Shown piece after piece: positions 17,561 to 33,344 of a DNA stretch of 51,401 nt. Numbering within the stretch: the first letter of the stretch is position 1; every line of letters begins with the position of its first letter. The stretch comes from an uncultured Ruminococcus sp. GTDB taxonomy: Bacteria > Bacillota > Clostridia > Oscillospirales > Ruminococcaceae. A model generated the notes under the pieces. The model was not told the DNA's origin, made no database searches, and worked only from the letters and a program-made list of their open reading frames with translations. The stretch lies in assembly GCA_902786975.1 (NCBI GenBank), contig CADAES010000018.1:1-51401 (forward strand), read 5' to 3'. The position numbers and the translations under genes were made by a program.

Positions 17561-17597
17561 TAAAGCTGCGCATTTCCCAAACGATATGATATGAACA

Positions 17598-17655
17598 GAC
17601 CCCTCAGAGCAGACACGAAAAGGTGTGAAAGCTCTGAGGGGTCATTTTGTTTTTT
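17598..17655. terminator. Bidirectional terminator between GGDEF and ANTAR genes
   Basis: A perfect 13-bp stem, GACCCCTCAGAGC / GCTCTGAGGGGTC (17598-17643), with a T-rich tail on the plus strand and an A-rich stretch inside the loop. It serves two convergent genes. Confidence 0.85.
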
Positions 17656-17663
17656 GGGGAAGG

Positions 17664-18260
17664 TTATGCTGTCCCGTTATCGCTCAGATCGATTATCTGC
17701 GTTGCTGCGGCGGATTTGGTGATGCAGCTGTCCATTGCGAGCTTTTCGATAGCCTTATGTGCCTGCTCCTCTGTCATTCCCTTTTGCGTTATTAGCAGCC
17801 ACTTTGCCCGGTTCACAAGACGTATCTCCTGCATCTTATCCTCAAGCGACACAGACCTTTTCTCCAGCTTTCTGAGCCTTTCCCTTGTGCTTTCCAGCCA
17901 GTCGAACGCCTGCGATACCATTTGCCTGGGCGACGGCTTTGGCAGTGTGAACACTCCATAAGGGCACACCCTATCGAACACGTCGGAATAATACTCGCCT
18001 TTGACCAGCAGCAGGACTGCGCTTGCCATTCCCGCACTGCGGTCTATCGCAAGGCTAATGCCGTCGTCATCGGGCAGCGGGACGTTGATGATTATTATAT
18101 CGTAGCTTTTGTCCAGCAGCCGTCTTTTTGCAGCATTCACGGTCGTTTCGAGCTCGCTGTCGTATTTGCGTCCGTCGTTCATCAGCTCGTTCAGAGCCTG
18201 ATTGAATTTGGGCTGCGACGAGACGGTAAGCACACTGTATCTTCGTTCTTTCAGCTGCAA
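17664..18260 (-). CDS. ANTAR-domain RNA-binding antiterminator with a degenerate receiver
   Basis: The protein has 198 residues. AAAGGGG lies eight bases before the TTG at 18260; the longer frame from 18278 overlaps that site. Residues about 1-115 have the receiver layout, but the phospho-acceptor Asp is replaced by Asn (DIIIINVPLPDDDG), so normal phosphorylation is not expected. A coiled-coil region (about 120-145) leads into an ANTAR domain (about 140-190: VNRAKWLLITQKGMTEEQAH, then AMDSCITKSAAA). ANTAR proteins bind paired hexaloop RNA hairpins and prevent termination. Such hairpins with terminators occur at the heads of both nitrogen transcripts here (25427-25471 and 25617-25757), so these are its likely targets. 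This is the last gene of the glutamate-synthase operon. Confidence 0.9.
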   Translation of the reverse strand: MQLKERRYSVLTVSSQPKFNQALNELMNDGRKYDSELETTVNAAKRRLLDKSYDIIIINVPLPDDDGISLAIDRSAGMASAVLLLVKGEYYSDVFDRVCPYGVFTLPKPSPRQMVSQAFDWLESTRERLRKLEKRSVSLEDKMQEIRLVNRAKWLLITQKGMTEEQAHKAIEKLAMDSCITKSAAATQIIDLSDNGTA

Positions 18261-18305
18261 GGCGGTCACCCCTTTCAAAAGTAAGATATAGGTGCAAGCA
18301 GGAGG

Positions 18306-18767
18306 TCACAGCTCCTTTGCATAGCACACAGCGCCCTTGAGCGAATCATAGGGCGGATAGTTCGGGATAAGTATATAGCCACGTTTTTCGTACATTTTAA
18401 CGGCTTCGGTCATCTGCGGTCTTGTCTGGAGTATGAGCCTTTCAAAGCCCTGCTCCCTTGCGGTGTGTTCAACCATACTCATAAGCTCTGATGCGATATG
18501 CCTGCCCCGGTATTCGGGCTGCACCCAGACACGCTTTATCTCGGTGCTTGTCTCATCGTATTTTTTCAAGCCCGCACACGCCACGGCTTTCTGCCCGTCA
18601 TAAGCAATTATCACATCGGGTATCATCGCCGAAGCGTTGAAAGGCACAAAGCCCTTTCGGTTTTTCTCGCCGCCGACAAGGCTGCTGTAAAACTCCTCGG
18701 TCAACCGGTAGAACTCCGCAAAATCCTTATTCGTTCCGTCGGTGCGGATATAGCGTATCCCGTCCAA
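18306..18767 (-). CDS. GNAT-family N-acetyltransferase
   Basis: The protein has 153 residues. AGGAGG, which overlaps the end of glnA, is eight bases before the TTG at 18767; the in-frame GTG at 18776 is too close. The acetyl-CoA loop is PEYRGRHIASEL (the Q/RxxGxG/A pattern), preceded by the strand IKRVWV and followed by LILQTRPQMTEAVKMYEKRG, the usual end of the fold. The substrate is unknown. Its place between glutamine synthetase and the ANTAR regulator in one operon hints at a nitrogen-related substrate or at protein acetylation, but nothing in the sequence shows it. Confidence 0.85.
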   Translation of the reverse strand: MDGIRYIRTDGTNKDFAEFYRLTEEFYSSLVGGEKNRKGFVPFNASAMIPDVIIAYDGQKAVACAGLKKYDETSTEIKRVWVQPEYRGRHIASELMSMVEHTAREQGFERLILQTRPQMTEAVKMYEKRGYILIPNYPPYDSLKGAVCYAKEL

Positions 18768-18779
18768 GCCAGACACCTC

Positions 18780-19988
18780 CTATTTGCAATAGATGTCGAT
18801 GAGCCTTTGCGGCAGATGCTGCTTGACAAACTCACTTTCGAGCGCAAGCTGCTTTGCCTGCGAAAGCTTGTCGGGCAGGGTCTGGAAATCCTTAGTCACG
18901 CTCTCGTCGGCTTTGAACAGGTCAAAGTCGGCAACAGGCGGAAGGTAGAGCTTGTTGTTTATGCCGTAAAGTCCTGCGTATATAAGCAGAGTAAATGCAA
19001 GGTACGGATTTGCCGTGGGGTCTGCGCTTCGCAGCTCGGCACGGCGGTACTCACCCTTGGCCGCAGGTATCCTGACCAGCTGGGAACGGTTCTCACCCGA
19101 CCAGGAGATAAATCTGGGGGCTTTGAACTTTCCGAGCCTTGCATACGAATCGTCACAGGGGTCAAGAAACACGCTTATACCTCTTATCTGCTGCATAATG
19201 CCCGCAATTACCGAGGGGAGGATAGTGTGGTGTCTGTCGCTGTTGACGGATATATTGATGTGGAATGCGTTGCCCGGCTTGTCCTTCAGAGGCTTTGGCG
19301 AAAAGTCCGCATAAAGCCCGTTGGAATGTGCGACAGTCTTTACGACCGTTTTGTAGGACATCGAATTGTCCGCAGCGGCAAGCGGGTCTGCATAGTGGAA
19401 ATCTATCTTGTTCTGTCCCGGGCCCTCCTCGTGGTGGGAGCTTTCGGGGGTGATGCCCATCTGCTCGAGGTGCAGGCATATCTGCCTTCTGATGTTCTCG
19501 CCCTTGTCCTCGGGGGCGATATCCATATAGCCGGCGTTGTCATAGGGTATCGTTGTGGGGTTATCGTTCTCGTCGAGCTTGAAAAGGTAAAACTCCAGAG
19601 CCGAGCCGAACGAGAACTCTATGCCCTGTTTTTTTGCATCCTCGACAGCTTTTACGAGCAGACTTCTTGTGTCGCACTCAAAAGCCTGTCCGTCAGGCTT
19701 TTTTATCGAGCAGAACATTCTGACGACACGCCCGTGGTCGGGGCGCCACGGCAGGACCGAGAGCGTATCGGGGTCGGGGAAAAGCATAAGGTCGCTTCGT
19801 GCCTCGTTGCCGAAGCCACGAACGGCGGACGCATCAAATCCTATTCCCTGCTCAAAAGCTCTTCCAAGCTCCGACGGCATTATAGAGATATTCTTCTGTT
19901 TGCCGTACACATCGCAGAATGCAAGTCTTATGAACTTTACGTCTTCCTCTGCGGTATACTGCATTATTTCCTGCGGTGTATATTTCAT
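18780..19988 (-). CDS. glnA: Glutamine synthetase, type I-like
   Basis: The protein has 402 residues, somewhat shorter than the usual 440-470. GGAGG lies seven bases before the ATG. The N-terminal beta-grasp (EDVKFIRLAFCDVYGKQKNI) and the catalytic domain are present, with HHEEGPGQNKIDFHY, NAFHINISV and RAELRSADPTANPYLAF. Two metal-region positions depart from the standard pattern: the GPEPEF segment reads GSALEF, so the first Glu is Ala, and the HxH of the MHxHQS block reads HIN. This may be a divergent or regulatory glutamine synthetase, or an enzyme for another amine. It lies in the operon with glutamate synthase, downstream of the heptamer repeat. The genome also carries GSIII at 25794. 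Confidence 0.88.
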   Translation of the reverse strand: MKYTPQEIMQYTAEEDVKFIRLAFCDVYGKQKNISIMPSELGRAFEQGIGFDASAVRGFGNEARSDLMLFPDPDTLSVLPWRPDHGRVVRMFCSIKKPDGQAFECDTRSLLVKAVEDAKKQGIEFSFGSALEFYLFKLDENDNPTTIPYDNAGYMDIAPEDKGENIRRQICLHLEQMGITPESSHHEEGPGQNKIDFHYADPLAAADNSMSYKTVVKTVAHSNGLYADFSPKPLKDKPGNAFHINISVNSDRHHTILPSVIAGIMQQIRGISVFLDPCDDSYARLGKFKAPRFISWSGENRSQLVRIPAAKGEYRRAELRSADPTANPYLAFTLLIYAGLYGINNKLYLPPVADFDLFKADESVTKDFQTLPDKLSQAKQLALESEFVKQHLPQRLIDIYCK

Positions 19989-20058
19989 ATCTGTCCTCCG
20001 GTAAAGATGCTCCGGCTTTTGCCTTTTGCATCCTGAATCTCGAATCTTTATTCCTGTC

Positions 20059-20272
20059 TCTTGCCTCTTGCTTCTTGCCTCTTACTTCTGCCTCTTGCTT
20101 CTTGCCTCTTACTTCTGCCTCTTGCTTCTTGCCTCTTGCTTCTTGCCTCTTACTTCTGCCTCTTGCTTCTTGCCTCTTGTTTCTGCCTCTTGCTTCTTGC
20201 CTCTTGCTTCTTGCCTCTTACTTCTGCCTCTTGCTTCTTGCCTCTTGTTTCTGCCTCTTGCTTCTTGCCTCT
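20059..20272 (-). repeat. Heptamer minisatellite between two genes of the operon
   Basis: About 214 bp built from the seven-base words CTTGCCT, CTTGCTT, CTTACTT and CTTGTTT, with periodic six-base CTGCCT units (plus strand); in the transcript this is purine-rich, of the AAGCAAGAGGCAAG type. It starts at the stop codon of the GXGXG gene (20271-20273) and ends shortly before the glnA leader. It contains no stop codons in several plus-strand frames, which creates artificial open frames. Confidence 0.95.
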
Positions 20273-20990
20273 AGTTGGGTACATACATCTGTCTGTACGG
20301 GTTGTTGCTGTCGGGCATCGCAACGGTGAACGGAGACCTCATAAGCTCGTCAAGGTCACAGTCAAAGTATGTGCAGAAATGCCTCAGATAGTGCTCTATC
20401 TCCGCAAGCTCCTTCTTGTCGGCTCTGTGAGTGTGGACCTGACCGGGGAACTTTATATCCTTGCAGTCGCTTCTGAGGAACATCTTTCCGCCGTGCATTC
20501 CCGTTGAGGGGAAATTGCCCACGATAGGTCTGTCGTTATCCACAAGCCCGAGCACGATTATCGTACCGCCTGCCTGATACTCGCCGAGAAAGCTTCCTGC
20601 CTTTCCGCCGATGACAAGTGCGGGCTGTTTTTCCTTATATGCTTTCATATGTATACCTGCACGGTAGCCTGCGTTGCCCTTTACGTAGATATGTCCGCCT
20701 CTCATCGCATAGCCTACGGCGTCGCCGACGTTTCCGTGGATAATAATAGTTCCGTCGTTCATCGTATCGCCGACTGCATCCTGTGCGTTGCCCATGACCT
20801 CTATCTTTGCGCCGTTGAGGTAAGCACCCATCGCATTTCCGGGGATACCGCTGACGGTGACTGTCTTGTCCGAAATGCCTGCTGCGAGAAATCTCTGTCC
20901 GAGGCAGTTGGTGATAGTACAGTTGCCTCTGCTCTGGCGGAGCGCTTCGTTAAGGTCCATAAAGTCAAGACCTGTTGCATTGATATTCAT
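20271..20990 (-). CDS. Glutamate synthase GXGXG-domain subunit
   Basis: The protein has 239 residues. GGAGG is nine bases before the ATG, which overlaps the TAA of the upstream gene (TAATG), so translation is coupled. The body is the right-handed beta-helix of the glutamate synthase alpha-subunit C-terminus, with repeated G-x-x-G-x-G steps such as GNAMGAY, GNAQDAVGD, GNVGDAVGYAMRGG and GNAGYRAG. In the large GltB of most bacteria this domain is fused to the others; here it is a separate gene, as in archaeal-type enzymes. It probably forms the structural bridge between the amidotransferase and FMN subunits encoded upstream. Confidence 0.92.
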   Translation of the reverse strand: MNINATGLDFMDLNEALRQSRGNCTITNCLGQRFLAAGISDKTVTVSGIPGNAMGAYLNGAKIEVMGNAQDAVGDTMNDGTIIIHGNVGDAVGYAMRGGHIYVKGNAGYRAGIHMKAYKEKQPALVIGGKAGSFLGEYQAGGTIIVLGLVDNDRPIVGNFPSTGMHGGKMFLRSDCKDIKFPGQVHTHRADKKELAEIEHYLRHFCTYFDCDLDELMRSPFTVAMPDSNNPYRQMYVPN

Positions 20991-22228
20991 TATACCACAC
21001 CTCCAAGCATTTTTCTACGGTTTTCGGGCAAAAACATCGCCAATGTAGCATCTTTTTTCAATTTGTCAACATCTACGTAACACAGGTCCGTCTTTTCACG
21101 TATAATTCTCGTGTAAATTCCTGCTCCTGTGACATCGCCGATGATGATATAGCCTGCAAGGCGGTCATCTTTTATGTACAGCCGTTTAATTCCGCCGCAG
21201 CTTCTTTGCTCGTATATCTCTCCCTCGCCGTCGGACGGACACACTCCTGCGCTTGCACAGTGCAGACCGAAAAATCCGATAGAGTTCATCGGTATCGCAT
21301 CGGTCATGCTCTTTTCGCCGCCGGCCATATTTACGCCTGCACAGAAGCCCTGCATATAAGCATTTGGCAGGATAGCGAGCACTCTGTTCGTTCCCGTTGA
21401 GCTGTCAAAGCCTTGTGCGCAGTCACCTGCGGCATAGATGCCATCAACGCTCGTTTTCATCTTCGTATCTATCACGATGCCTCTGTCTGTCTCACAGCCT
21501 GCGTCCTTTGCGAGCTGAATGTCCGCACGCACGCCGACAGCAAGCACGAGGATATCAAAATCCACTGTCTTTTTGCTTTTCATTACGGCCTTGTTCTTAT
21601 CAAACTTCACCACGCTGTCCGAAAGCAGGAAGGTGATGCCGTGCTTTTCAAGATGCTTTTGCATAACCGCTGCGCACTCGCTGTCAAGAATACTTGACAG
21701 CACTCTGTCCGCAAGGTCGCACACCGTTACGGAGCCTACCCTTTCGAGTATACCCTCTGCGCATTTCAGACCTATAAGGCCTGCGCCGACGATGAGCACA
21801 CGGCTGTTCTTTTTAAGCTTCTTTTCGAGAGCGAGGCTGTCGTCCAGCGTCATAAAGGTAAACTTGTCCTTCACGCTGTCCAGTCCATCCATAGGCGGAA
21901 CGAACGGTGACGAGCCTGCTGCGATGCAAAGCTTTTCGTATTTCTCCTTTGATCTGCCGAAGGTCACCTCGGCTCTTTTTGCATCTATGCTTTCAGCCTT
22001 TTCGTAGACGGCACGGACTCCGTTTTGCTTATAAAAGTCACCGCTGCGGTAATTCATTTTTTCGACCGTTGTTTTCCCCTCGAGATAATAGGAGATCAGC
22101 GGTCTTGAATAAACAGGGTGCTTTTCAGCCGAAAAAACTGTTATCTCTCCGTCCTTATCGACACTTCGGATACCTTCGATGCAGCCGGCTGCTGCAACGC
22201 CGTTGCCGATGATAACATACTTGCTCAT
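20990..22228 (-). CDS. NAD(P)H / FAD oxidoreductase, probable electron-input subunit of glutamate synthase
   Basis: The protein has 412 residues. The start is the ATG at 22228, six bases after AGGG; an in-frame TTG at 22234 is less likely. Two dinucleotide folds are visible: VIIGNGVAAAGCIEGIR for FAD and VLIVGAGLIGLKCAEGI for NAD(P)H. The FAD-closing block is GIYAAGDCAQG. It belongs to the pyridine-nucleotide-disulfide class resembling rubredoxin reductase or NirB N-termini, without a redox CxxC. With the polyferredoxin gene ending four bases upstream and glutamate-synthase genes on both sides, it most likely takes electrons from NAD(P)H and passes them through the ferredoxin to the FMN subunit. 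It replaces the usual GltD. Confidence 0.88.
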   Translation of the reverse strand: MSKYVIIGNGVAAAGCIEGIRSVDKDGEITVFSAEKHPVYSRPLISYYLEGKTTVEKMNYRSGDFYKQNGVRAVYEKAESIDAKRAEVTFGRSKEKYEKLCIAAGSSPFVPPMDGLDSVKDKFTFMTLDDSLALEKKLKKNSRVLIVGAGLIGLKCAEGILERVGSVTVCDLADRVLSSILDSECAAVMQKHLEKHGITFLLSDSVVKFDKNKAVMKSKKTVDFDILVLAVGVRADIQLAKDAGCETDRGIVIDTKMKTSVDGIYAAGDCAQGFDSSTGTNRVLAILPNAYMQGFCAGVNMAGGEKSMTDAIPMNSIGFFGLHCASAGVCPSDGEGEIYEQRSCGGIKRLYIKDDRLAGYIIIGDVTGAGIYTRIIREKTDLCYVDVDKLKKDATLAMFLPENRRKMLGGVV

Positions 22229-22230
22229 TT

Positions 22231-22665
22231 TCAACCCTGCCTTTCCTCATAAACTATCGCATTGTTCGGACAGCCCTTTACGCACGCCGGCTCGCCGCAG
22301 CTGTTTTCAAGACACAGCTCGCATTTGTTCGCAGCGCCGTCCGGGCCCGGTCTTACAGCACCGTAGGGGCACACGAGCACGCAGGTCAGACAGCCAACGC
22401 ACTTTGTCTTGTCTATCTTTACGACACCGTCGAGCTTGCTTATCGCACCCGCTATGCAGCTTTTTACGCAAAGCGGGTCAGTGCAGTGGCGGCAGGATAC
22501 CGCATAGGTGATGTCGCCGGACTGCTCGATGTGTACACGGGGAAATATCTTTTTATTCTTCAGAGCCTTTACCATATCCGTTTCGCCCGAATTTGCAAAG
22601 GCACAGTTATACTCGCAAAGGTGACAGCCAAGACACCATTTTTCATTTACATATACACGTTTCAT
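22231..22665 (-). CDS. Polyferredoxin with four [4Fe-4S] motifs
   Basis: The protein has 144 residues from the ATG at 22665, which has AGGAGG nine bases upstream; a longer frame to 22704 overlaps the preceding gene and lacks a ribosome site. Sixteen cysteines form four clusters: CLGCHLCEYNC, CRHCTDPLCVKSC, CVGCLTCVLVC and CELCLENSCGEPACVKGC. The arrangement is that of iron-sulphur electron-transfer subunits such as HycB or DmsB. It lies between the FMN subunit and the FAD oxidoreductase genes, so it probably carries electrons within the glutamate synthase complex. Confidence 0.9.
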   Translation of the reverse strand: MKRVYVNEKWCLGCHLCEYNCAFANSGETDMVKALKNKKIFPRVHIEQSGDITYAVSCRHCTDPLCVKSCIAGAISKLDGVVKIDKTKCVGCLTCVLVCPYGAVRPGPDGAANKCELCLENSCGEPACVKGCPNNAIVYEERQG

Positions 22666-22678
22666 TATGCTGTCCCTC

Positions 22679-24184
22679 CTATTCTCCTGCGTGGGAGATA
22701 CCAAGTATCTCGAGCTCTTTATCCGTAAGGCCTACGCCTCTGAGCATAAGCCTGTTGCCTCGCAGACATTCGATCGAGTTTATTCCCATGGCGCCCATAA
22801 GCTCCTTTATCTCGTGTCTCCAGGCGTTCATAAGATTTACGAGCCTGCGGCTTCCGATATCGGGGTTGAGCCTCTTAACAAGGTCCGGTCTTTGTGTTGC
22901 TATGCCCCAGTTGCACTTGCCGCTCTGACAGGTCCGGCAGAGGTGACAGCCAAGTGCGAGCAGCGCTGCGGTCGCAATATAGACTGCATCTGCTCCGAGT
23001 GCCACAGCCTTTACGACGTCTGCTGCCGAGCGAACGCTTCCGCCGACAACGAGCGATACATTGTTTCTGATGCCCTCGTCACGCAAGCGCTGGTCAACAG
23101 ATGCCAGCGCAAGCTCTATCGGGATACCCACGTTGTCCCTTATCCTTGTCGGTGCTGCGCCCGTTCCGCCACGGAAACCGTCGATAGCGATGATGTCCGC
23201 ACCGCTTCTTGCGATACCGCTTGCGATAGCTGCTATGTTATGTACAGCTGCGACCTTGACGATTATCGGCTTTTTATAGTCTGTCGCTTCCTTGAGCGAA
23301 TATACGAGCTGGCGAAGGTCCTCGATAGAATAGATATCGTGGTGAGGTGCGGGCGAGATAGCGTCCGAGCCTTCGGGTATCATTCTTGTACGGGAGATAT
23401 CGCCCACTATCTTTGTACCGGGAAGATGTCCGCCGATACCGGGCTTTGCGCCCTGACCCATTTTTATCTCGACAGCTGCTGCGGCTTCGAGGTAGTCCTT
23501 GTGAACGCCGAAACGTCCCGACGCTACCTGAACGACCGTGTTCTCGCCGTAGCAGTAAAAGTCCTCGTGCAGACCGCCTTCACCCGTGTTGTAGCAGATA
23601 CCCAGCTCTGTTGCTGCCCTTGCGAGCGAAGCGTGAGCGTTGTAGCTGATAGAGCCGTAGCTCATTGCGGAGAACATCACAGGCATCGAAAGCTCGACCT
23701 GCGGAGGCATCTGTGTTATAAGCTCACCGCTTGCACGGCGAAGCACCTTATCAGGCTTCTTGCCGAGGAACACCTTTGTTTCCATAGGCTCTCTCAGCGG
23801 GTCGATAGGCGGGTTTGTTACCTGTGAAGCATTGATGAGTATCCTGTCCCAGTAAACGGGCAGAGGCTTGGGATTTCCCATTGACGAGAGCAGTACTCCG
23901 CCGCTGTTTGCCTGCTTGTATATCTCTTTTATCGTCTGATCCGACCAGTTTGCATTCTCACGCAGGCGGCAGTCGCTCTTTACTATTTTAAGTGCGTGGG
24001 TCGGACACAGAGAAACACATCTCTGACAGTTTACGCACTTTGTTTCGTCCGAAAGCATTACTCCGAGGTCGGTATCAAAGCGGTGCACCTCGTTTGCACA
24101 CTGCCTTTCGCACACACGGCAGGCAACGCAGCGGTCGTTGTTCCTGACCACTTCATATTCGGGATATATAAATTGATCTATCAT
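22679..24184 (-). CDS. Glutamate synthase FMN-binding (catalytic) subunit with N-terminal ferredoxin domain
   Basis: The protein has 501 residues. AGGAGGG precedes the ATG, which overlaps the stop of the previous gene (TGATG). Residues about 15-70 carry two [4Fe-4S] motifs (CVACRVCERQC and CVNCQRCVSLC). The rest is the TIM-barrel FMN domain of glutamate synthase: MSYGSISYNAHASLA, NTGEGG, KPGIGGHLPG, IIAIDGFRGGTGAAP and the phosphate site VVGGSVRSAADVVKA. A late cysteine group, CHLCRTCQSGKC, matches the 3Fe-4S-type site. It makes glutamate from 2-oxoglutarate and the ammonia delivered by the amidotransferase subunit. This is the archaeal-type split form. Confidence 0.94.
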   Translation of the reverse strand: MIDQFIYPEYEVVRNNDRCVACRVCERQCANEVHRFDTDLGVMLSDETKCVNCQRCVSLCPTHALKIVKSDCRLRENANWSDQTIKEIYKQANSGGVLLSSMGNPKPLPVYWDRILINASQVTNPPIDPLREPMETKVFLGKKPDKVLRRASGELITQMPPQVELSMPVMFSAMSYGSISYNAHASLARAATELGICYNTGEGGLHEDFYCYGENTVVQVASGRFGVHKDYLEAAAAVEIKMGQGAKPGIGGHLPGTKIVGDISRTRMIPEGSDAISPAPHHDIYSIEDLRQLVYSLKEATDYKKPIIVKVAAVHNIAAIASGIARSGADIIAIDGFRGGTGAAPTRIRDNVGIPIELALASVDQRLRDEGIRNNVSLVVGGSVRSAADVVKAVALGADAVYIATAALLALGCHLCRTCQSGKCNWGIATQRPDLVKRLNPDIGSRRLVNLMNAWRHEIKELMGAMGINSIECLRGNRLMLRGVGLTDKELEILGISHAGE

Positions 24185-25281
24185 CAGAATTTACCCTCCT
24201 TGACACGAACTATCACAGGCTCTCCGCCACTTGGCGCATAGAAATTGCCTGCGTCGGGCTCCATTGTCCTTATCGCAGCTTCCTCGCTTGCGATGAACAC
24301 CTTATCGTCCTTTTCGGCGGTTATCATAGAACGAAGCTTCAGTCTGTCGTTAAGAGCCATAAGTCCGCCGTCCCAGCCGAACACTATCGAGAACGGTCCT
24401 GTGATGAGCAGGTTTGAAAACACCGTGCGAAGATATGTCAGCTTTTCTTTTTCCTTTTCGGGTTTGGAATTTATTGTGCTCCAGAAAGGCGCTGCTATTA
24501 CCGAAGCGACCTCCTCGAGCGTGAGCTTCTGCCTTCTGAGCAGATAGTCTATTATATATGTGATGACCTCGGTGTCGGTCTGCAAAGTGCATTTGTAGCC
24601 GAACATCTCGATAAAGCGGCGGTTTGCATCGTAGGAGGATATCTCGCCGTTGTGGACTACCGAGTAATCCAGCAGAGAGAACGGGTGAGCGCCACCCCAC
24701 CAGCCCGGAGTGTTTGTCGGGTAGCGTCCGTGAGCTGTCCAGGAATAGCCCTCATACTCCTCGAGCCTGTAAAAGCGTCCCACGTCCTCGGGAAAGCCGA
24801 CTGCCTTGAAGCAGCCCATATTCTTTCCGCTTGAAAAAACATAAGCACCCTTGAGCTCGGTGTTGATCCTTACGACTGTTCTTGCAACGAACTCGTTTTC
24901 ATCTATCTGCTCCGCTGCGAGCATCGACTTCAGCGGTGCGACGAAGTATCTCCAGATGATAGGCTCGTCGGTTATCTCGGGGATCTTCCTTGTGGGGATA
25001 AGCTCTCCCTTGACGATCTCGAACCTTTCCTTTAACAGTGCCTCACATTCCTTCCTTGTTGAACGGTGGTCAAAAAAGATATGGAATGCGAACAGATCCT
25101 TATACTCGGGATAGATTCCGTATGCTGCAAATCCGCCGCCCAATCCGTTTGAACGGTCGTGCATCGGTTTCATAGCCTCTGTGATAAGGTCGCCTCTGAT
25201 ACCCTTGCCTTCCCTTGAGATAACGGCTGCGATCGCACAGCCCGAAGGGATACGTATCTCGCCTTCTCTTTTCATCATCAT
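24184..25281 (-). CDS. Glutamate synthase glutamine-amidotransferase subunit
   Basis: The protein has up to 365 residues; three ATG codons in a row (25281, 25278, 25275) follow AAAGGATGAG, and any could serve. It is a class II (Ntn) amidotransferase. The nucleophile is most likely the Cys near residue 15 (RIPSGCAIAAVI), implying removal of a short propeptide, as in archaeal-type enzymes. Other signature parts are GRYPTNTPGWWGGAHPF, VVHNGEISSYDAN and LQTDTEV. It releases ammonia from glutamine for the FMN subunit. It is the first gene of the minus-strand nitrogen operon, with its own promoter and attenuator-like leader. Confidence 0.92.
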   Translation of the reverse strand: MMMKREGEIRIPSGCAIAAVISREGKGIRGDLITEAMKPMHDRSNGLGGGFAAYGIYPEYKDLFAFHIFFDHRSTRKECEALLKERFEIVKGELIPTRKIPEITDEPIIWRYFVAPLKSMLAAEQIDENEFVARTVVRINTELKGAYVFSSGKNMGCFKAVGFPEDVGRFYRLEEYEGYSWTAHGRYPTNTPGWWGGAHPFSLLDYSVVHNGEISSYDANRRFIEMFGYKCTLQTDTEVITYIIDYLLRRQKLTLEEVASVIAAPFWSTINSKPEKEKEKLTYLRTVFSNLLITGPFSIVFGWDGGLMALNDRLKLRSMITAEKDDKVFIASEEAAIRTMEPDAGNFYAPSGGEPVIVRVKEGKF

Positions 25282-25423
25282 CTCATCCTTTCCTGTATAA
25301 CCACGACCGATGACCCCTGCCGAGATCCTGAGCGGTCAGCACCGAAGCAAGCGAAGCTCGGTTTGTCGTGACTTGAGTGACGGGGCGAAGCCCCTTATTG
25401 AATGTGGTGCCATCACACAAAAC
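25282..25423 (-). other. Structured 5' leader of the glutamate synthase operon
   Basis: After the early terminator about 140 nt remain before the start codon. They contain a GGGGC-TTCG-CCCC hairpin, a CCGA..TCGG hairpin and a possible long-range CACGAC/GTCGTG pairing. A frame of 71 codons crosses this area but has no ribosome site and was not called a gene. Confidence 0.5.
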
Positions 25424-25464
25424 AAAAAAGGCGCACCCAGCCCGTAAGCTGAATGAACGCCTTT
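25424..25464 (-). terminator. Leader terminator (attenuator) of the glutamate synthase operon
   Basis: On the minus strand AAAGGCG pairs with CGCCTTT, then after a 2-nt bulge an 8-bp stem CATTCAGC / GCTGGGTG closes on the six-base loop TTACGG; TTTTTT follows. It begins only about eight nucleotides after the predicted transcription start and sits 140 nt before the first gene, so it must be bypassed for expression. Confidence 0.85.
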
Positions 25465-25471
25465 GCTCATT
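25452..25471 (-). promoter_or_regulatory. Candidate ANTAR-binding hexaloop hairpin, glutamate synthase leader
   Basis: On the minus strand AATGAGC and GTTCATT form a 7-bp stem (one G-U) around the loop AAAGGC, which has A at position 1 and G at position 4, the known ANTAR-RNA requirement. Its loop and 3' arm overlap the 5' arm of the terminator, so the two folds are mutually exclusive. Confidence 0.7.
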
Positions 25472-25478
25472 TGCAAGT

Positions 25479-25507
25479 ATTATACTGCAAAAATTCATTT
25501 ATGTCAA
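25479..25507 (-). promoter_or_regulatory. Consensus promoter of the glutamate synthase operon
   Basis: On the minus strand TTGACA (25507-25502), a 17-nt spacer and TATAAT (25484-25479), a perfect match to the housekeeping consensus. Transcription would start near 25472. Confidence 0.9.
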
Positions 25508-25579
25508 GTTTTGATATATAAATTATTTGTAAACTGCAAGTTTCAAAAATAAAAATTGCAAATTTTCATCAAAAAGGGG

Positions 25580-25608
25580 TTGACAAATCGAAATTGAGGG
25601 TGTATAAT
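25580..25608 (+). promoter_or_regulatory. Consensus promoter of the GSIII transcript
   Basis: TTGACA (25580-25585), 17-nt spacer and TATAAT (25603-25608). It is divergent from the glutamate synthase promoter about 70 bp away. Transcription would begin near 25615. Confidence 0.9.
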
Positions 25609-25616
25609 GCAAGACA

Positions 25617-25674
25617 TAGAGGCAAAGGAGTCTTGAAGTAATCTGGCTATCTTCAAGTATTGTCTCTATTTTTT
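25617..25674 (+). promoter_or_regulatory. First hexaloop/terminator module of the GSIII leader
   Basis: The stem AGGC/GTCT with flanking pairs around the loop AAAGGA (25624-25629) has A1 and G4. It overlaps a larger alternative fold: ATAGAG (25616-25621) with CTCTAT (25664-25669) and CTTGAAG (25632-25638) with CTTCAAG (25651-25657), followed by a run of six T (25669-25674). This is a hexaloop hairpin overlapping a terminator-like hairpin. Confidence 0.6.
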
Positions 25675-25709
25675 ATGCCTTTGGCAGATATCTTCTATTT
25701 TTTATTACT

Positions 25710-25725
25710 AAGGCAACGGCGTCTT
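25710..25725 (+). promoter_or_regulatory. Second ANTAR-type hexaloop hairpin of the GSIII leader
   Basis: AAGGC (25710-25714) pairs with GTCTT (25721-25725) around the loop AACGGC (25715-25720), again with A1 and G4. The sequence AGGCAA-GG-GTCTTG is shared with the first module. It overlaps the 5' arm of the terminator at 25719-25757, so binding would block termination. Confidence 0.68.
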
Positions 25726-25766
25726 GTATGTGAGCTTATCGGCTCCCATCAAGGCGCTTTTGTTTT
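25719..25766 (+). terminator. Leader terminator upstream of GSIII
   Basis: GCGTCTTG (25719-25726) pairs with CAAGGCGC (25750-25757), continuing through ATG/CAT and GAGC/GCTC to the loop TTATCG; TTTTGTTTT follows. It ends about 28 bp before the glnN start, so it is an attenuator rather than an end-of-gene terminator. Confidence 0.85.
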
Positions 25767-25793
25767 ACACAAAATTCAGGGAGGAAATGAAAA

Positions 25794-27890
25794 ATGAGTA
25801 CGGTAACAGAGATCTTCGCAAGCAAGGTATTTGACGACAGAGTGATGAAATCAAGGCTTTCTTCAAAAGTCTACAAGTCGCTCAAGGAGACTATCGACAT
25901 CGGAGCAAAGCTTGACATAACCGTAGCCAACGCAGTAGCCGAGGCTATGAAGGAATGGGCGGTCGAGAACGGCGCTACCCATTATACACATTGGTTCCAG
26001 CCTCTCACAGGAATCACAGCCGAAAAGCACGACAGCTTTATCTCGCCTTCACCCGACGGCAGAGTTATCATGGATTTCTCGGGCAAGGAGCTTATCAAGG
26101 GCGAGCCTGATGCATCGAGCTTCCCGTCCGGCGGACTGAGAGCTACATTCGAGGCAAGAGGCTACACCGCATGGGACCCGACCTCCTACGCTTTTATTAA
26201 AGGAAAGACACTTTGTATCCCGACAGCATTCTGTTCTTACAGCGGAGAAGCTCTGGACAAGAAAACCCCTCTCCTGCGTTCGATGCAGGCGCTCAACAAG
26301 CAGGCTATGCGTATCCTGAAGCTGTTTGGAAATGACACAGTAAAGCACGTTACTACCTCCGTGGGTCCCGAGCAGGAATACTTCCTTATCCCCAAGGAGC
26401 TTTACGATAAGAGAAAGGACCTTATCTATACAGGCAGAACACTTTTCGGTGCGAAGCCTCCGAAGGGACAGGAGCTTGACGACCACTATTTCGGAGTTAT
26501 CAAGCCAAGAGTTGAAGCTTATATGTCCGACCTCAACGATGAGCTTTGGAAGCTCGGTATCCTCGCAAAGACACAGCACAACGAGGTCGCTCCCGCACAG
26601 CACGAGCTTGCACCTATCTACGCTACAACAAATATTGCAACAGACCACAACCAGCTGACTATGGAGATCATGCAGAAGGTCGCTAAGAAGCACGGACTTG
26701 TCTGCCTGCTCCACGAAAAGCCTTTCGCAGGCGTTAACGGCTCGGGCAAGCACAACAACTGGTCTATCGCTACCGATACCGGCGTGAACCTGCTGACACC
26801 GGGAGAAACACCTTATGAAAATGCACAGTTCCTGCTTTTCCTGTGCGCTGTTATCAAGGCAGTCGACGATTATCAGGATCTGCTGAGGATCTCCGTTGCA
26901 ACAGCCGGAAACGACCACAGACTCGGTGCAAACGAAGCACCTCCGGCAGTTATCTCGATCTTCCTCGGCGAGGAGCTTGAAGGTATCCTCAAGGCTATCG
27001 AAACAGATACACCATACGAGGGCATCGAAAAGAAGGTAATGAAGCTGGGTGTAAGCGTTCTGCCGAGCTTCTCAAGAGACACCACCGACAGAAACAGAAC
27101 TTCCCCGTTCGCCTTCACAGGCAACAAGTTCGAGTTCAGAATGCTCGGTTCGTCAAACTCTATCGCTTGTGCAAACATCATGCTCAACGCAGCTGTTGCA
27201 GAGAGCCTAAAGATCTACGCTGACAGGCTCGAGGCTGCCGACAACTTCGAGGAGAAGCTGCACGAGATGATAAAGAAAACTATCACCGACCACAAGCGCA
27301 TCATCTTCAACGGAAACGGTTACGACGATGCCTGGATAAAGGAAGCGACCGAGGAAAGAGGTCTGCTCAACTACCGCACGACACCCGACGCTATCCCGCA
27401 TCTTATGGACGAAAAGAACGTGAAGATGCTGACATCTCACAAGGTATTCTCCGAGGCAGAGCTTCGCAGCCGTACCGAGATCACACTTGAAAACTACTGC
27501 AAGGCAGTCATCATAGAAGCAAATACCATGGAGCTTATCGCCCGCACTCAGATCCTCCCCGCTATCGAGGAGTACGCAGCATTCGTCGCTAATACAGCAA
27601 ACGCTAAAAAGTCGCTCGCTACCGACCTTGCCTGCACATACGAGACACAGACGGTCAAGAAGCTCTCGGCACTTGCAAACAGCGCTTATGAAAGCCTTGA
27701 CGAGCTTAAAGCAGCTCTTGATAAGGTGCTTGCTGCAAAGGATATCATCGAGCAGGGCTATCTCATCAGAGATGAGCTGCTCGGAGTTATGGATAAGCTC
27801 AGAGCTTCCTGCGACGAAGCCGAGACTATCACCGCAGCAAAGTTCTGGCCATTCCCGACATACGACGAGCTGCTGTTCGGCGTAAGGTAA
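25794..27890 (+). CDS. glnN: Glutamine synthetase type III
   Basis: The protein has 698 residues, the normal length for GSIII, with GGGAGG before the ATG. Recognisable segments include [81 protein letters not shown] and [16 protein letters not shown], which are hallmarks of the GlnN family and carry the metal and substrate ligands. It makes glutamine from glutamate, ammonia and ATP. It is the first gene downstream of the double attenuator leader and is followed by the ammonium transporter. Control by ANTAR antitermination is inferred from the leader. Confidence 0.97.
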
Positions 27891-27905
27891 ACAGCACAAA
27901 AAGCT

Positions 27906-27979
27906 CTCCTTCTCCCGCACCCCTTAAAAAGCGTGAACCGATAGTAACTTCCATCTTTGCGGGGGAAGGGGCGGCTTTT
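27906..27979 (+). terminator. Long-loop hairpin between glnN and the ammonium transporter gene
   Basis: CTCCTTCTCCCGCA (27906-27919) can pair over 14 bp (with G-U) with TGCGGGGGAAGGGG (27958-27971), followed by CGGCTTTT. The loop is 38 nt. The T run is short, so termination may be partial. No clear promoter was found between here and the transporter start. Confidence 0.5.
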
Positions 27980-28002
27980 CCAAACGGGCACAGTCCCGTT
28001 AA

Positions 28003-28047
28003 TAAAGTAAGGAAAGTTCAAGTTTATAAAGTAAGGAAAGATCAAGA
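28003..28047 (+). repeat. Short tandem repeat before the ammonium transporter start
   Basis: Two copies of about 21 nt (TAAAGTAAGGAAAG-N-TCAAG) start at 28003 and 28027, 24 bp apart and differing at two bases. They lie 20-60 bp upstream of the start codon. A preceding AACGGG-CACAGT-CCCGTT hairpin has a six-base loop but lacks A1/G4. Confidence 0.7.
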
Positions 28048-28065
28048 TAGAAAGGATATGATCCT

Positions 28066-29796
28066 ATGACAGTGGAATTTTGGTTTCTGATAGGCGCTGC
28101 ATTGGTTTTCTGGATGCAGGCAGGCTTTGCAATGGTAGAGACAGGCTTTACCCGTGCAAAGAACGCAGGAAATATCATCATGAAAAACCTGATGGATTTC
28201 TGCATCGGCACAATAGTATTCTCGCTCCTGGGCTACGGTCTTATGATGGGTGAGGACGCTCTGTTCGGATTTATCGGACTGCCGAATATGGATATGTTCA
28301 CACACTTCAAGGAATTTATAGCAAGCCCCGGCGACGGCAGCTTCACAGGCGCTTCGACATTCGTGTTCAACCTTGTGTTCTGCGCAACGACAGCTACTAT
28401 CGTTTCGGGCGCAATGGCAGGCAGAACAAAGTTCTCAAGCTATTGTATCTACTCCGCAGTCATCTCACTTTTCATCTATCCCATCGAGGCGCATTGGATC
28501 TGGGGCGGCGGCTGGCTCTCAAAGCTCGGCTTCCACGATTACGCAGGCTCATGTGCTATCCATATGGTCGGCGGAATCGCCGCCCTTATCGGTGCGTCGA
28601 TGCTTGGGGAGAGAATAGGCAAATACGAGCGTGACAAGAACGGCAAGGTCATCAAGGTAAACGCTATCCCCGGTCACTCGATAACACTCGGAGCACTCGG
28701 CGTATTCATTCTCTGGCTCGGCTGGTACGGCTTCAACGGCGCAGCAGCTACAAGCGTTTCGGAGCTTTCGTCGATCTTCATCACAACTACTATCGCACCC
28801 AGCGTTGCAACAGTAACAACGATGATCTACACATGGGTAAGAAACGGCAAGCCCGATGTTTCGATGTGTCTGAACGCATCGCTTGCAGGTCTTGTTGGAG
28901 TAACGGCAGGCTGTGACGCATTCGACGCTATCGGCTCGGCAGTTGTCGGAGTTGTTTCGGGACTGCTCGTTGTATGGGTAGTTGAACTGCTCGACCTCAA
29001 GCTTCACATCGACGACCCTGTCGGTGCAGTAGGCGTTCACATGGCAAACGGTATCTGGGGAACTATTGCAGTCGGACTGCTCGCTAATCCGGACGCTCCC
29101 GCTGGTCTTAACGGTCTTTTCTACACAGGCGAATTCAAGCAGCTCGGCTTGCAGCTCGCCGGCTTTGCAGCAGTTGCGGCTTATGCGGCAATAATGATGT
29201 TGATCACATTTGCGATAATCAAAAAGACTCACGGTCTGAGAACGACCGCAGAAGAAGAGATACTCGGTCTTGATATCACCGAGCACGGTCTCCCAAGCGC
29301 ATATCCAGACTTTATGCCGTCGGTACACAAGTACACCACTTACGACGACCAGGACGTTATCGCTGTTGAGGGCGACACTCCCGAGGCTGAGGCTATCCCC
29401 GTCAAGAAGGTACCTACCTTCGACGATGGCACATCGCCTAAGCTCACAAAGATCGAGATCGTCTGCAAGGAAGCTAAGTTTGACCGCCTGAAGAAGGCTA
29501 TGAGCCAGATAGGCATTACAGGTATGACGGTATCCCACGTTATGGGCTACGGCACACAGAAGGGCAAGCCCGAGTATTACAGAGGCGTTGCTGTTGAAAC
29601 AAACCTTATGCCTAAGGTACAGATCGAGATAGTTGTCAGCAAGGTGCCTGTCAGAAGCGTTATCGAAACTGCCAAGAAGGCTCTTTACACAGGTCATATC
29701 GGCGACGGAAAGATATTCGTTTACGATGTTGAGAACGTTGTAAAGGTCAGAACGGGCGAAGAAGGCTTCGATGCTTTGCAGGACAGCGAAGAATAA
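28066..29796 (+). CDS. Ammonium transporter fused to a PII signalling domain
   Basis: The protein has 576 residues. Residues 1 to about 410 form an Amt/Rh channel of about eleven helices: FWMQAGFAMVETGF near the start, the signature DYAGSCAIHMVGGIAAL, and GAVGVHMANGIWGT. A linker (about 410-455) leads to a complete PII domain (about 458-570) with the B-loop TGHIGDGKIFV. The T-loop reads QKGKPEYYRGVAVETNLMPK: the Glu-Tyr of the usual RGxEY is Ala-Val, so the uridylylation Tyr is absent. The PII domain should still bind ATP/ADP and 2-oxoglutarate and may gate its own channel. It lies in the glnN group. Confidence 0.94.
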   Translation: MTVEFWFLIGAALVFWMQAGFAMVETGFTRAKNAGNIIMKNLMDFCIGTIVFSLLGYGLMMGEDALFGFIGLPNMDMFTHFKEFIASPGDGSFTGASTFVFNLVFCATTATIVSGAMAGRTKFSSYCIYSAVISLFIYPIEAHWIWGGGWLSKLGFHDYAGSCAIHMVGGIAALIGASMLGERIGKYERDKNGKVIKVNAIPGHSITLGALGVFILWLGWYGFNGAAATSVSELSSIFITTTIAPSVATVTTMIYTWVRNGKPDVSMCLNASLAGLVGVTAGCDAFDAIGSAVVGVVSGLLVVWVVELLDLKLHIDDPVGAVGVHMANGIWGTIAVGLLANPDAPAGLNGLFYTGEFKQLGLQLAGFAAVAAYAAIMMLITFAIIKKTHGLRTTAEEEILGLDITEHGLPSAYPDFMPSVHKYTTYDDQDVIAVEGDTPEAEAIPVKKVPTFDDGTSPKLTKIEIVCKEAKFDRLKKAMSQIGITGMTVSHVMGYGTQKGKPEYYRGVAVETNLMPKVQIEIVVSKVPVRSVIETAKKALYTGHIGDGKIFVYDVENVVKVRTGEEGFDALQDSEE

Positions 29797-29819
29797 TAGA
29801 GAAGAACATAATTCAACAG

Positions 29820-29847
29820 ACAGGAAGCGGCATATACTGCTTCCTGT
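29820..29847 (+). terminator. Hairpin after the Amt-PII gene
   Basis: ACAGGAAGC (29820-29828) pairs perfectly with GCTTCCTGT (29839-29847). No T run follows, so it may be a processing or pausing hairpin rather than a full terminator; the next gene begins 30 bp later. Confidence 0.4.
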
Positions 29848-29876
29848 GCTGTGCTTAATAATACGGAGGGATAGAT

Positions 29877-31460
29877 ATGTGTTGTATAATGGGCTACTGT
29901 TCCGCACAGGCGGACATGGAGCTGATAAAGGAATGTTTCGGGCGCACCGTATCAAGGGGACCCGATGACACAAGATATGTAACCGTGCCCGACGGAGTGC
30001 TGGGCTTTCACAGGCTTTCGATAATGGGACTTACCGATTCGGGAATGCAGCCGTTCAGGCTCGGCGACAGCTATGTTGTGTGCAACGGTGAGCTTTACGG
30101 TTTTGAAAAGCAGAAGGCTGAGCTTGTGAAAATGGGCTACACCTTTGAGAGCGATTCAGACTGCGAGATACTCCTGCCGATGTACAGAGAATACGGTACA
30201 AGAGTGTTCTCTATGCTCGATGCGGAGTTTGCCTGCATCATCTACGATGCTTCCACTCACGAGTTCATCGCAGCCCGTGACCCGATAGGCATTCGTCCGC
30301 TTTACTACGGCTATGACGAAAACGGAGTGCTTGCGTTTGCCAGCGAGCCGCAGAACCTTATCGGCATAGCTCTTGATATCAAGCCGTTCCCTCCGGGATA
30401 CTACTGCGTGAACGGTGAGTTCACCCGCTACTGTGATATTGCCGCAGTCAGCGAGGTCTGCCGTGACGACCACGAAACTATTTATAAAAACATCCACGAC
30501 AAGCTGGTGGCAGGAGTTGAAAAGCGTCTTGTTGCCGATGCAAAGGTGGGCTTTCTGCTTTCGGGCGGACTTGACTCGTCGCTTGTGTGCGCAATAGCTC
30601 AGAAAAAATCCAACAAGCCGATAAAGACATTCGCTATCGGTATGAGCGAGGACGCTATCGACCTCAAATACGCTAAGGAGGTCGCAGACTACATCGGAAG
30701 CGACCACACCGAGGTCATCATCACAAAGGAAGATGTCATCGCAGCGCTGGAGCCTGTTGTCAAGCTGCTGGGCACGTTTGACATCACAACTATCCGTGCA
30801 AGTATCGGAATGTACCTTGTCTGCAAGGCTATCCACGAGACGACCGATATAAGGGTGATCCTCACGGGTGAGATATCCGACGAGCTGTTCGGCTACAAGT
30901 ACACCGACTTTGCGCCGAACGCAAAGGAATTTCAGCTCGAAGCCCAGAAGCGCATCAGAGAAATACATATGTACGATGTGCTGCGTGCTGACCGCTGCAT
31001 CTCCGTAAACTCGCTTGAAGCTAGAGTGCCTTTCGGCGACCTTGACTTTGTGCGCTACATAATGGCTATCGACCCGCACAAGAAGCTCAACACCTACGGC
31101 AAGGGCAAATACCTTCTGAGAAAGGCTTTCGAGAAGGACGACTATCTTCCGCACGATATCCTCTACCGTGAAAAAGCTGCGTTCTCCGATGCAGTCGGAC
31201 ATTCGCTCGTAAACTACCTCAAAGCCTATGCAGAGCAATACTACACCGATGCGGACTACTACCGCCTGCGTGAAAAATACTCTCACGCAAAGCCGTTCAC
31301 AAAGGAATCTCTGCTTTACCGTGAGATATTTGAAAAATACTACCCGGGACAGAGCAAGATGATAGTCGATTTCTGGATGCCGAACAAGAGCTGGAAGGGC
31401 TGCGATGTCAGCGACCCGTCGGCAAGAGTGCTTTCCAACTACGGCGCAAGTGCGATCTGA
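29877..31460 (+). CDS. asnB: Asparagine synthetase (glutamine-hydrolysing)
   Basis: The protein has 527 residues with GGAGGG before the ATG. The N-terminus MCCIMGY places the nucleophile Cys at position 2 of a class II amidotransferase domain (about 1-190; RGPDDTRYV, CNGELYGF, DCEILLPMY). Residues about 205-500 form the ATP-pyrophosphatase synthetase domain with the P-loop LLSGGLDSSLVC and ILTGEISDELFGY. It converts aspartate to asparagine using glutamine. The position between the ammonium transporter and CTP synthase collects glutamine-consuming enzymes in one transcript direction. Confidence 0.94.
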   Translation: MCCIMGYCSAQADMELIKECFGRTVSRGPDDTRYVTVPDGVLGFHRLSIMGLTDSGMQPFRLGDSYVVCNGELYGFEKQKAELVKMGYTFESDSDCEILLPMYREYGTRVFSMLDAEFACIIYDASTHEFIAARDPIGIRPLYYGYDENGVLAFASEPQNLIGIALDIKPFPPGYYCVNGEFTRYCDIAAVSEVCRDDHETIYKNIHDKLVAGVEKRLVADAKVGFLLSGGLDSSLVCAIAQKKSNKPIKTFAIGMSEDAIDLKYAKEVADYIGSDHTEVIITKEDVIAALEPVVKLLGTFDITTIRASIGMYLVCKAIHETTDIRVILTGEISDELFGYKYTDFAPNAKEFQLEAQKRIREIHMYDVLRADRCISVNSLEARVPFGDLDFVRYIMAIDPHKKLNTYGKGKYLLRKAFEKDDYLPHDILYREKAAFSDAVGHSLVNYLKAYAEQYYTDADYYRLREKYSHAKPFTKESLLYREIFEKYYPGQSKMIVDFWMPNKSWKGCDVSDPSARVLSNYGASAI

Positions 31461-31531
31461 CATCACCGCTTTTGCGGTCTATTGGGATAAGATATGGGAT
31501 AAGAAATAACATTATGAACAGGAGGATATGA

Positions 31532-33130
<1,599 letters not shown>

Positions 33131-33176
33131 TGCTGCGGCTGCAAAACCGTTTTGACAAAACATATTTTACGATATC

Positions 33177-33212
33177 AAGGAGCTGTCGCTTTCGGGCAAC
33201 GGCTCCTTTTTG
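33177..33212 (+). terminator. Intrinsic terminator after pyrG
   Basis: AAGGAGC (33177-33183) pairs with GCTCCTT (33202-33208), followed by TTTTTG. It closes the plus-strand nitrogen group. Confidence 0.75.
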
Positions 33213-33274
33213 TTCCCTGCAAGGCTTTTTGACAGATCTATTTCCACCCGGGAGAGAAAAAATTGCGGATTTAA

Positions 33275-33303
33275 TTGATTTATTAATATGCTTGTGTTAT
33301 ACT
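33275..33303 (+). promoter_or_regulatory. Promoter of the EAL protein gene
   Basis: TTGATT (33275-33280), 17-nt spacer and TATACT (33298-33303). The start of transcription near 33310 rules out the in-frame ATG at 33288 as the start codon. Confidence 0.75.
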
Positions 33304-33344
33304 TGTATCAAAGCTCCGAATTTGTCGCAGGGGGAGATGAGATA

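Follow-up and report, generated by a model that had tools for sequence, protein, structure and literature searches.

Single A1/G4 hexaloops overlapping terminators before divergent nitrogen operons of an uncultured Ruminococcus, candidate sites of ANTAR antitermination

The window analysed here, a stretch of 51,401 nucleotides, is contig C18 of a 90.35% complete genome of an uncultured Ruminococcus sp., and it carries two divergent, presumed operons for nitrogen metabolism (Table 1). The plus transcript would run from GSIII glutamine synthetase through an Amt-PII fusion and AsnB to CTP synthase. The minus transcript would begin with the class-II amidotransferase (GATase) subunit of glutamate synthase and continue through the remaining glutamate synthase-type genes, a short GlnA and a GNAT acetyltransferase to an ANTAR protein. 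The preliminary description had recognised an ANTAR gene in this operon, and the domain was recovered there by profile search (PF03861, 52.6 bits against a cut-off of 27.3); no other was found in the genome. Among named sequences, the nearest relatives of this protein come from Ruminococcus and Clostridia MAGs, several of them obtained from the rumen or reticulum of sheep or deer. The 282-bp gap before glnA (19989-20270) consists mostly of CTTGCCTCTTGCTTCT-type short repeats. In the gaps of the plus operon (27891-28065, 29797-29876 and 31461-31534) a simple consensus scan listed no terminator-like site on the plus strand; of the three leader terminators described below the same scan listed only the minus one, and since it missed both plus-leader terminators we judged it insensitive.

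Table 1. Features of the divergent nitrogen locus and of further leaders in the same genome. Positions refer to the window unless contig C45 is named; loops are in square brackets.
Feature	Position	Strand	Basis or remark
ANTAR protein with pseudo-receiver domain	17664..18278	-	PF03861, 52.6 bits
GNAT acetyltransferase gene	18306-18776	-	between glnA and ANTAR in window operon
Short GlnA, a probable pseudo-glutamine synthetase and likely partner of ANTAR	18780..19988	-	Ala and Lys in place of two conserved Glu (alignment); co-occurs with ANTAR
Remaining glutamate synthase-type genes: Glu_synthase, ferredoxin-like, Pyr_redox_2, GXGXG	20271..24184	-	domain matches
Class-II glutamine amidotransferase (GATase) subunit of glutamate synthase, first gene of minus operon	24184..25281	-	PF00310
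Intrinsic terminator overlapping loop and 3' strand of minus hexaloop, then T run	25427..25464	-	fold z-score -3.87 vs shuffles
Single hexaloop AATGAGC[AAAGGC]GTTCATT at 5' end of minus transcript	25452..25471	-	stem from 7 nt past -10 box
Sigma-70 promoter of glt/gln/ANTAR operon, TTGACA-17-TATAAT	25479..25507	-	12/12 match; also upstream of GATase gene in relatives
Sigma-70 promoter of GSIII operon, TTGACA-17-TATAAT	25580..25608	+	12/12 match
First plus terminator, overlapping hexaloop 1	25616..25669	+	fold z-score -2.54 vs shuffles
First plus hexaloop GAGGC[AAAGGA]GTCTT	25619..25634	+	stem from 10 nt past -10 box
Second plus hexaloop TAAGGC[AACGGC]GTCTTG	25709..25726	+	sequence; no own promoter, sits behind first
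Second plus terminator, overlapping hexaloop 2	25718..25758	+	fold z-score -6.34 vs shuffles
GSIII glutamine synthetase, first gene of plus operon	25794..27890	+	PF12437, PF18318
Amt-PII fusion, AsnB, CTP synthase (presumed operon)	28066..33130	+	domain matches
Leader L374, before ABC transporter, amidohydrolase, dihydroorotate-dehydrogenase-family, M20 peptidase, aminotransferase operon	C45 ~12600	-	
Leader L370, before CP_ATPgrasp/Alpha-E operon	C45 ~18636	-	passes terminator script
Leader L371, before FUSC/HAD gene	C45 ~20053	-	passes terminator script

Each operon is headed by a consensus sigma-70 promoter. The -35 boxes of the two lie 72 bp apart, and among 17 promoter-like sites in 17400-34000 these were the sole 12/12 matches. 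Leader hairpins with the six-base loops AAAGGC, AAAGGA and AACGGC had been described previously, and we confirmed in the window sequence that all three have A at loop position 1 and G at position 4 (A1/G4) and are closed by C-G and then G-U. Overlap with a terminator had been claimed for at least two of these hexaloops; in fact it applies to all three. Since the 3' strand of the hexaloop hairpin, together with part of its loop, sits in the 5' arm of the terminator, the two folds would be mutually exclusive. A search of Rfam at the gathering threshold gave no match in the window. For wider searches we used sequence patterns followed by hairpin checks instead of a covariance model, because a 16-nt hairpin is information-poor and because terminator and hairpin exclude each other.

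Since the A tract of a terminator can mimic part of a hexaloop, each of the 16 possible letter combinations at loop positions 1 and 4 was scored alike. Under the strict criterion a hairpin needed a closing C-G pair and at least 5 bp of stem, and its 3' strand had to form part of the 5' arm of a terminator. At stems of at least 5 bp the window held four A1/G4 hexaloop-terminator overlaps, namely the three leaders and a hairpin at 14244 that lies within a reading frame; the other 15 classes together gave 15. The comparison was then made with a census of the family, which covered 148 genomes, at least 90% complete and drawn from a larger group; the genus genomes G000, G003 and G011 were excluded from the leader comparison. 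Within 420 nt upstream of GSIII in ANTAR-positive family genomes, the strict criterion found A1/G4 in 67 of 134 leaders and any other class in 0 to 4, among the matches listed; the most frequent of the others was G1/G4, with 4 leaders. At stems of at least 4 bp the counts among the matches listed were 82/134 for A1/G4 and at most 5 for any other class, and when a promoter ending within 30 nt was also demanded they were 66/134 and, again, at most 5. Second GSIII copies outside the matches listed are omitted from this leader set. Class-wide, in 18 other families taken irrespective of their ANTAR status, A1/G4 was found in 15 of 29 GSIII leaders, compared with a single leader for one other class. 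On the 16-class comparison we rejected the reading of the hexaloops as mere terminator A tracts.

In 75 family hairpins, selected for A at loop position 1 and G at position 4, position 2 was always A, position 3 took all four letters, position 5 was G in 60, A in 14 and T in 1, and position 6 was C in 63, T in 9 and A in 3. A G at position 1 was found in 4 leaders by the strict criterion and in 5 at 4-bp stems. Inspection by eye of four leaders (L199, L287, L314 and L294) showed G1 hexaloops in otherwise the same arrangement, for example ACAGC[GAAGGC]GCTGT.

The preliminary description had named relatives that keep the terminators but lose A1/G4 from the loops as evidence against its proposal. 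Among the genus relatives we found the hexaloop and terminator of the GATase leader, with A1/G4 kept, in all 17 genomes where the start of the GATase gene was located, and both plus-strand hexaloops, again with A1/G4, in all 10 GSIII leaders of the island locus. In these orthologous leaders A1 and G4 are constant, and loop positions 3, 5 and 6 vary. The genus GSIII set comprised 39 rows: the 10 island rows with both hexaloops, 26 paralogous rows (17 with one hexaloop, 9 with none), two rows from G017 that are apparently operon-internal and have no hexaloop, and one contig end. Thirty-nine of 40 rows were used, G014:C31, whose leader was found only in the pattern search, being left out; L129 (23 nt, at a contig end) and the second hairpin of L072, which has no terminator, were left unused. 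In G004 the promoter-hexaloop-terminator block before the GATase gene is tandemly duplicated (L069).

We then compared the stems themselves. The 18 rows of the GATase set have A-U at pair 6 in 16 cases, G-U in 1 and G-C in 1, with pair 7 broken in 4. Of the 10 rows of the second island hexaloop, 9 have A-U and 1 has G-C at pair 4, and pair 5 is broken in 3. Double changes from A-U to G-C occur once in the GATase set (L076) and once in the second island hexaloop (L034). Judged from these alignments, compensatory change among close orthologues exists but is sparse. Family stems, from hairpins that were selected for pairing, are diverse, pair 4 being A-U in 46, C-G in 22, G-C in 3, G-U in 3 and U-G in 1. 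The arrangement was repeated in four of five loci that are absent from the genus contigs.

A covariance model of the dual-hexaloop ANTAR RNA had been suggested as a check. It would be the wrong test, since the window leaders are single hexaloops and not that motif. Candidates for the second, upstream hexaloop (P1) were found within 60 nt upstream of 13 of 130 hexaloop-terminator units (L204, a weak match, being excluded), compared with a mean of 9.7 in shuffled sequence (50 rounds, range 2-15). In 82 of 104 promoter-linked hairpins the stem starts no more than 15 nt past the -10 box, so that the transcript has no room for P1, and in the promoter-linked genus leaders no further A..G hexaloop with a stem of at least 3 bp lies between promoter and hairpin. 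The dual-hexaloop motif was rejected because P1 candidates were not above chance, in a scan run without a known dual leader, such as that of E. faecalis eut, as positive control. Compared with a dual-hexaloop target, the window RNAs have A1/G4 and the terminator overlap and lack a P1 located 2-25 nt upstream. The two hexaloops of the plus leader are 74 nt apart and each has its own terminator, and we therefore read this leader as two successive single-hexaloop units. Outside the family a similar tandem form was seen at L393, L395, L404 and L409.

ANTAR was detected in 115 of the 148 family genomes, and GSIII leaders were available for 138 genomes, the exclusions being the three genus genomes, G062 (GSIII fragments) and six genomes without a GSIII match. 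Among the matches listed, a strict A1/G4 leader was present in 63 of 110 ANTAR-positive and 2 of 28 ANTAR-negative genomes (Fisher p ~1e-6, not phylogeny-corrected), and at 4-bp stems in 78/110 and 2/28; one of the two ANTAR-negative matches, L204, is weak. Conversely, 47 of the 110 ANTAR-positive genomes by the strict criterion, and 32 at 4 bp, had no GSIII hexaloop among the matches listed. In the genus, where 25 of 29 genomes have ANTAR, we sorted the copies into type A, the window type (63-80% identical to the window copy), and type B (32-38% identical). The hexaloop of paralogous GSIII genes, ACAGC[AANGGC]GCTGT, was found in all 16 genomes having both a B-type ANTAR and a GSIII leader but in only 2 of 11 without B-type; the 16 include G017, which has an ANTAR piece and a B-type GlnA only, and two further genomes with B-type ANTAR (G007, G026) have no GSIII match. 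All seven genomes with A-type only have a second GSIII without a hexaloop leader (L060, L123-L127 and L128). The last of these, on contig C5, belongs to the window genome, which has no B-type ANTAR. In the ANTAR-negative genus genomes G006 and G008 no promoter-hexaloop-terminator unit was seen by eye among the matches listed, whereas some were seen in G012 and G014; this genus pattern search was judged on the matches listed, with G022, G024, G028 and part of G000 outside them. Hexaloop leaders thus persist without a detected ANTAR in G012 (99% complete), G014 (93%) and, in the wider family, G054 (98%). Contig gaps may account for the missing gene in G014, and less easily in G012 and G054.

Turning to the reach of the system, the hexaloop pattern gave 69 rows in the window's own genome and 57 in the reversed control, and pattern counts alone are therefore meaningless. 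Some of the places were judged by eye only. Kept were those where a promoter and a hairpin accompanied the pattern, which left the three in the window and three more promoter-hexaloop leaders with 4-bp stems on the minus strand of contig C45 (loci L374, L370, L371; L376). The operon behind L374 looks, from its gene content, like one for pyrimidine breakdown for nitrogen; its leader is the weakest of the three, with no overlapping terminator by script and an inverted repeat, AAAGCAGGCAAAG/CTTTGCCTGCTTT, recognised by eye. The A-type glnA-ANTAR pair is preceded by a promoter, a hexaloop and a terminator of its own in G011, G017 and G020. The A-type regulator thus appears to be self-controlled, since it has a leader of its own in these three genomes and lies downstream in a hexaloop-controlled operon in the window. 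None of 17 B-type loci scanned had a hexaloop-terminator unit with a stem of at least 4 bp within 500 nt upstream of glnA. The preliminary description had put the genes of both window operons, GlnA included, under one RNA switch. The C45 leaders suggest that its reach extends past the island; GlnA is probably the partner of the ANTAR protein and not a working enzyme here.

We next examined the proteins. Of the 11 residues by which EutV contacts RNA, K149, E160 and M172 are identical in the aligned window ANTAR, K143 and K147 are Arg and N173 is Asp (counted as similar), and R142, Y164, R168, R175 and R177 align with Ile, His, Glu, Cys and Thr; the paper's numbering was taken as chain number minus 2, which we inferred from matching letters. 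The window receiver has Asn at the position of the phosphate-accepting Asp, and Asn or Ser occupies this site in the 26 copies read of the 28 longer ones in the genus (L028 and L027 excluded). Lacking that Asp, the window ANTAR is by its residues not a phosphorylated two-component response regulator. Its input would therefore be a protein or ligand signal, probably from the adjacent GlnA. Open frames of 65-76 amino acids that hold an ANTAR domain only (L030, L031, L131, L132 and L133) occur in G011, G017, G018 and G020, and possibly encode dominant-negative or remnant proteins.

GlnA and ANTAR are both present in 25 of the 29 genus genomes and both missing from the other four, an extra GlnA match in G014 being a weak match to GSIII, and a GlnA open frame adjoins ANTAR in 7 of 10 loci read (none at L164 or L168; L022 has one by coordinates). 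In an alignment with structure entry 7ten, which we take to be Listeria glutamine synthetase, two glutamates of the Listeria enzyme are replaced in the window GlnA by Ala and Lys; they are presumably metal-binding residues in active glutamine synthetase. The same Ala/Lys changes occur in 8 of 11 A-type GlnA copies, the other three keeping both glutamates. Among the 18 B-type copies, Ser takes the place of the first Glu, and Ile or Leu that of the Glu before LRSxD. Two such glutamates are thus lost in 26 of 29 genus copies (L340-L364 and L366-L369). Where other genera have GlnA-like copies next to ANTAR, the picture by eye was mixed, several copies keeping these glutamates. In most of the genus genomes the companion GlnA therefore probably does not act as an enzyme; most simply, we suggest, it would sense glutamine and gate ANTAR.

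The elements, their overlap with terminators, the extent to which they are conserved and their link with ANTAR genes are all directly visible in the sequences, and the comparison with relatives supports the core of the earlier proposal, that ANTAR antitermination governs both divergent operons. From this sequence evidence we judge it quite likely that the ANTAR protein acts in cis, by antitermination, on these single hexaloops. Polymerase leaving either promoter would transcribe an A1..G4 hexaloop hairpin within about the first 30 nt. With ANTAR inactive, the terminator would fold and transcription would end before the first gene. Active ANTAR, presumably under nitrogen limitation, would bind and hold the hexaloop. 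On the minus strand this would allow read-through into the glutamate synthase-GlnA-ANTAR operon, with positive feedback on the regulator; on the plus strand polymerase would pass two hexaloop-terminator units in turn before it reached the GSIII-Amt/PII-AsnB-PyrG operon.

Three other explanations must be weighed against this one. The plus leader does have two A1/G4 hexaloops, and these could be the P1 and P2 of canonical dual-hexaloop antitermination if the P1 of the minus leader had gone unrecognised. We consider this unlikely: a terminator lies between the two plus hexaloops and their 74-nt distance contrasts with published linkers, which are 5-12 nt in eut according to the accessible text of the EutV literature and 2-25 nt in a curated actinobacterial set of ANTAR RNAs; each plus hexaloop overlaps a terminator of its own; the minus leader leaves only 7 nt between -10 box and stem; and P1 candidates did not exceed chance. 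Alternatively, the leaders could be constitutive attenuators whose A tract and GGC merely resemble a hexaloop, with no involvement of ANTAR. The sequence AAAGGCG...CGCCTTT also occurs as an ordinary type of gene-end terminator in the window (40334 and 43551, minus strand), and three genomes keep hexaloops without a detected ANTAR. However, such attenuators would not account for the excess of A1/G4 over 15 other loop classes, for the extra 5' strand, which base-pairs outside the terminator and mostly stays paired where its sequence varies, or for the link between hexaloops and ANTAR presence, and we find this reading very improbable.

Each leader would also yield a short terminated RNA with the hexaloop sequence, and sequestration of this kind is known for EutX and EutV from the accessible part of PMC8934654, so that the terminated leaders might work chiefly by titrating ANTAR as small RNAs and not as cis antiterminators. 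Yet the terminated form locks the 3' strand of the hexaloop in the terminator stem, and the leader units directly precede genes, mostly of nitrogen metabolism; of the readings considered we give titration the least credence, and would be surprised to see it borne out. Antitermination in cis at single hexaloops is the reading we retain. A broader version of it, in which one ANTAR-hairpin contact beats the terminator across Clostridia and the degenerate GlnA of Ruminococcus is a dedicated sensor travelling with the ANTAR gene, we put forward tentatively, as a possibility we would not yet count on.

Gut and rumen Clostridia contribute to rumen ammonia balance, and cis antitermination at single hexaloops, if true, would explain the control of GSIII, ammonium uptake and glutamate synthase in many of them. 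A degenerate GlnA linked to a non-phosphorylated ANTAR would be one more instance of a glutamine synthetase serving as nitrogen sensor, beside GlnR and TnrA. In the window the ANTAR gene lies near glnA with a GNAT gene between them, and the gene for NitR of Clostridium saccharobutylicum is likewise said to be adjacent to glnA. NitR was reported to induce GS/GOGAT by antitermination on nitrogen limitation (Stutz 2007, as covered in the accessible text of PMC6316151), and like the window protein, a putative regulator of such genes, it belongs to the ANTAR family. Glutamate/glutamine synthase enzymes, ammonium transporters and PII were already among the ANTAR targets listed in 2012, according to the accessible part of PMC3369931. 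Given this list and the NitR report, an ANTAR circuit on nitrogen genes is known in kind.

Dual-hexaloop antiterminators of the EutV type are described for E. faecalis eut, Klebsiella nasF and P. aeruginosa amiE (Ramesh 2012, accessible text of PMC3369931). They share with the leaders studied here an A1/G4 hexaloop that overlaps an intrinsic terminator, an ANTAR protein and nitrogen genes; the system here differs in having a single hexaloop, in most cases 5'-terminal in the transcript, no P1, and a pseudo-receiver where EutV has a phosphorylated receiver. A receiver without phosphorylation residues is shared with AmiR (accessible text of PMC8934654), whose partner AmiC and amidase genes contrast with the putative GlnA-like partner and ammonia assimilation genes here. 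In the EutV system, as far as the accessible text goes, deletion of P1 ablates induction, and antitermination in vitro is lost when the linker is made 20 nt longer, so that by the EutV model a single hexaloop should not suffice. The accessible text of Walshe 2022 (PMC8934654) likewise states that both hexaloops of a pair must be contacted to prevent termination. The same text identifies one hexaloop as the minimal ANTAR binding site, from the EutV-RNA structure, and calls for further bioinformatics; the possible single sites it names are EutX and mycobacterial RNAs, and the present leaders are not among them. Our search of the literature, in which subscription papers were mostly out of reach, found no report of single-hexaloop, 5'-terminal antiterminators in Clostridia. 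What appears to be new here is therefore this single-hexaloop, 5'-terminal form of ANTAR antitermination, and such widespread, compact natural leaders would bear, by their sequence, on how far single-hexaloop sites are used, a question that the EutV structure left open.
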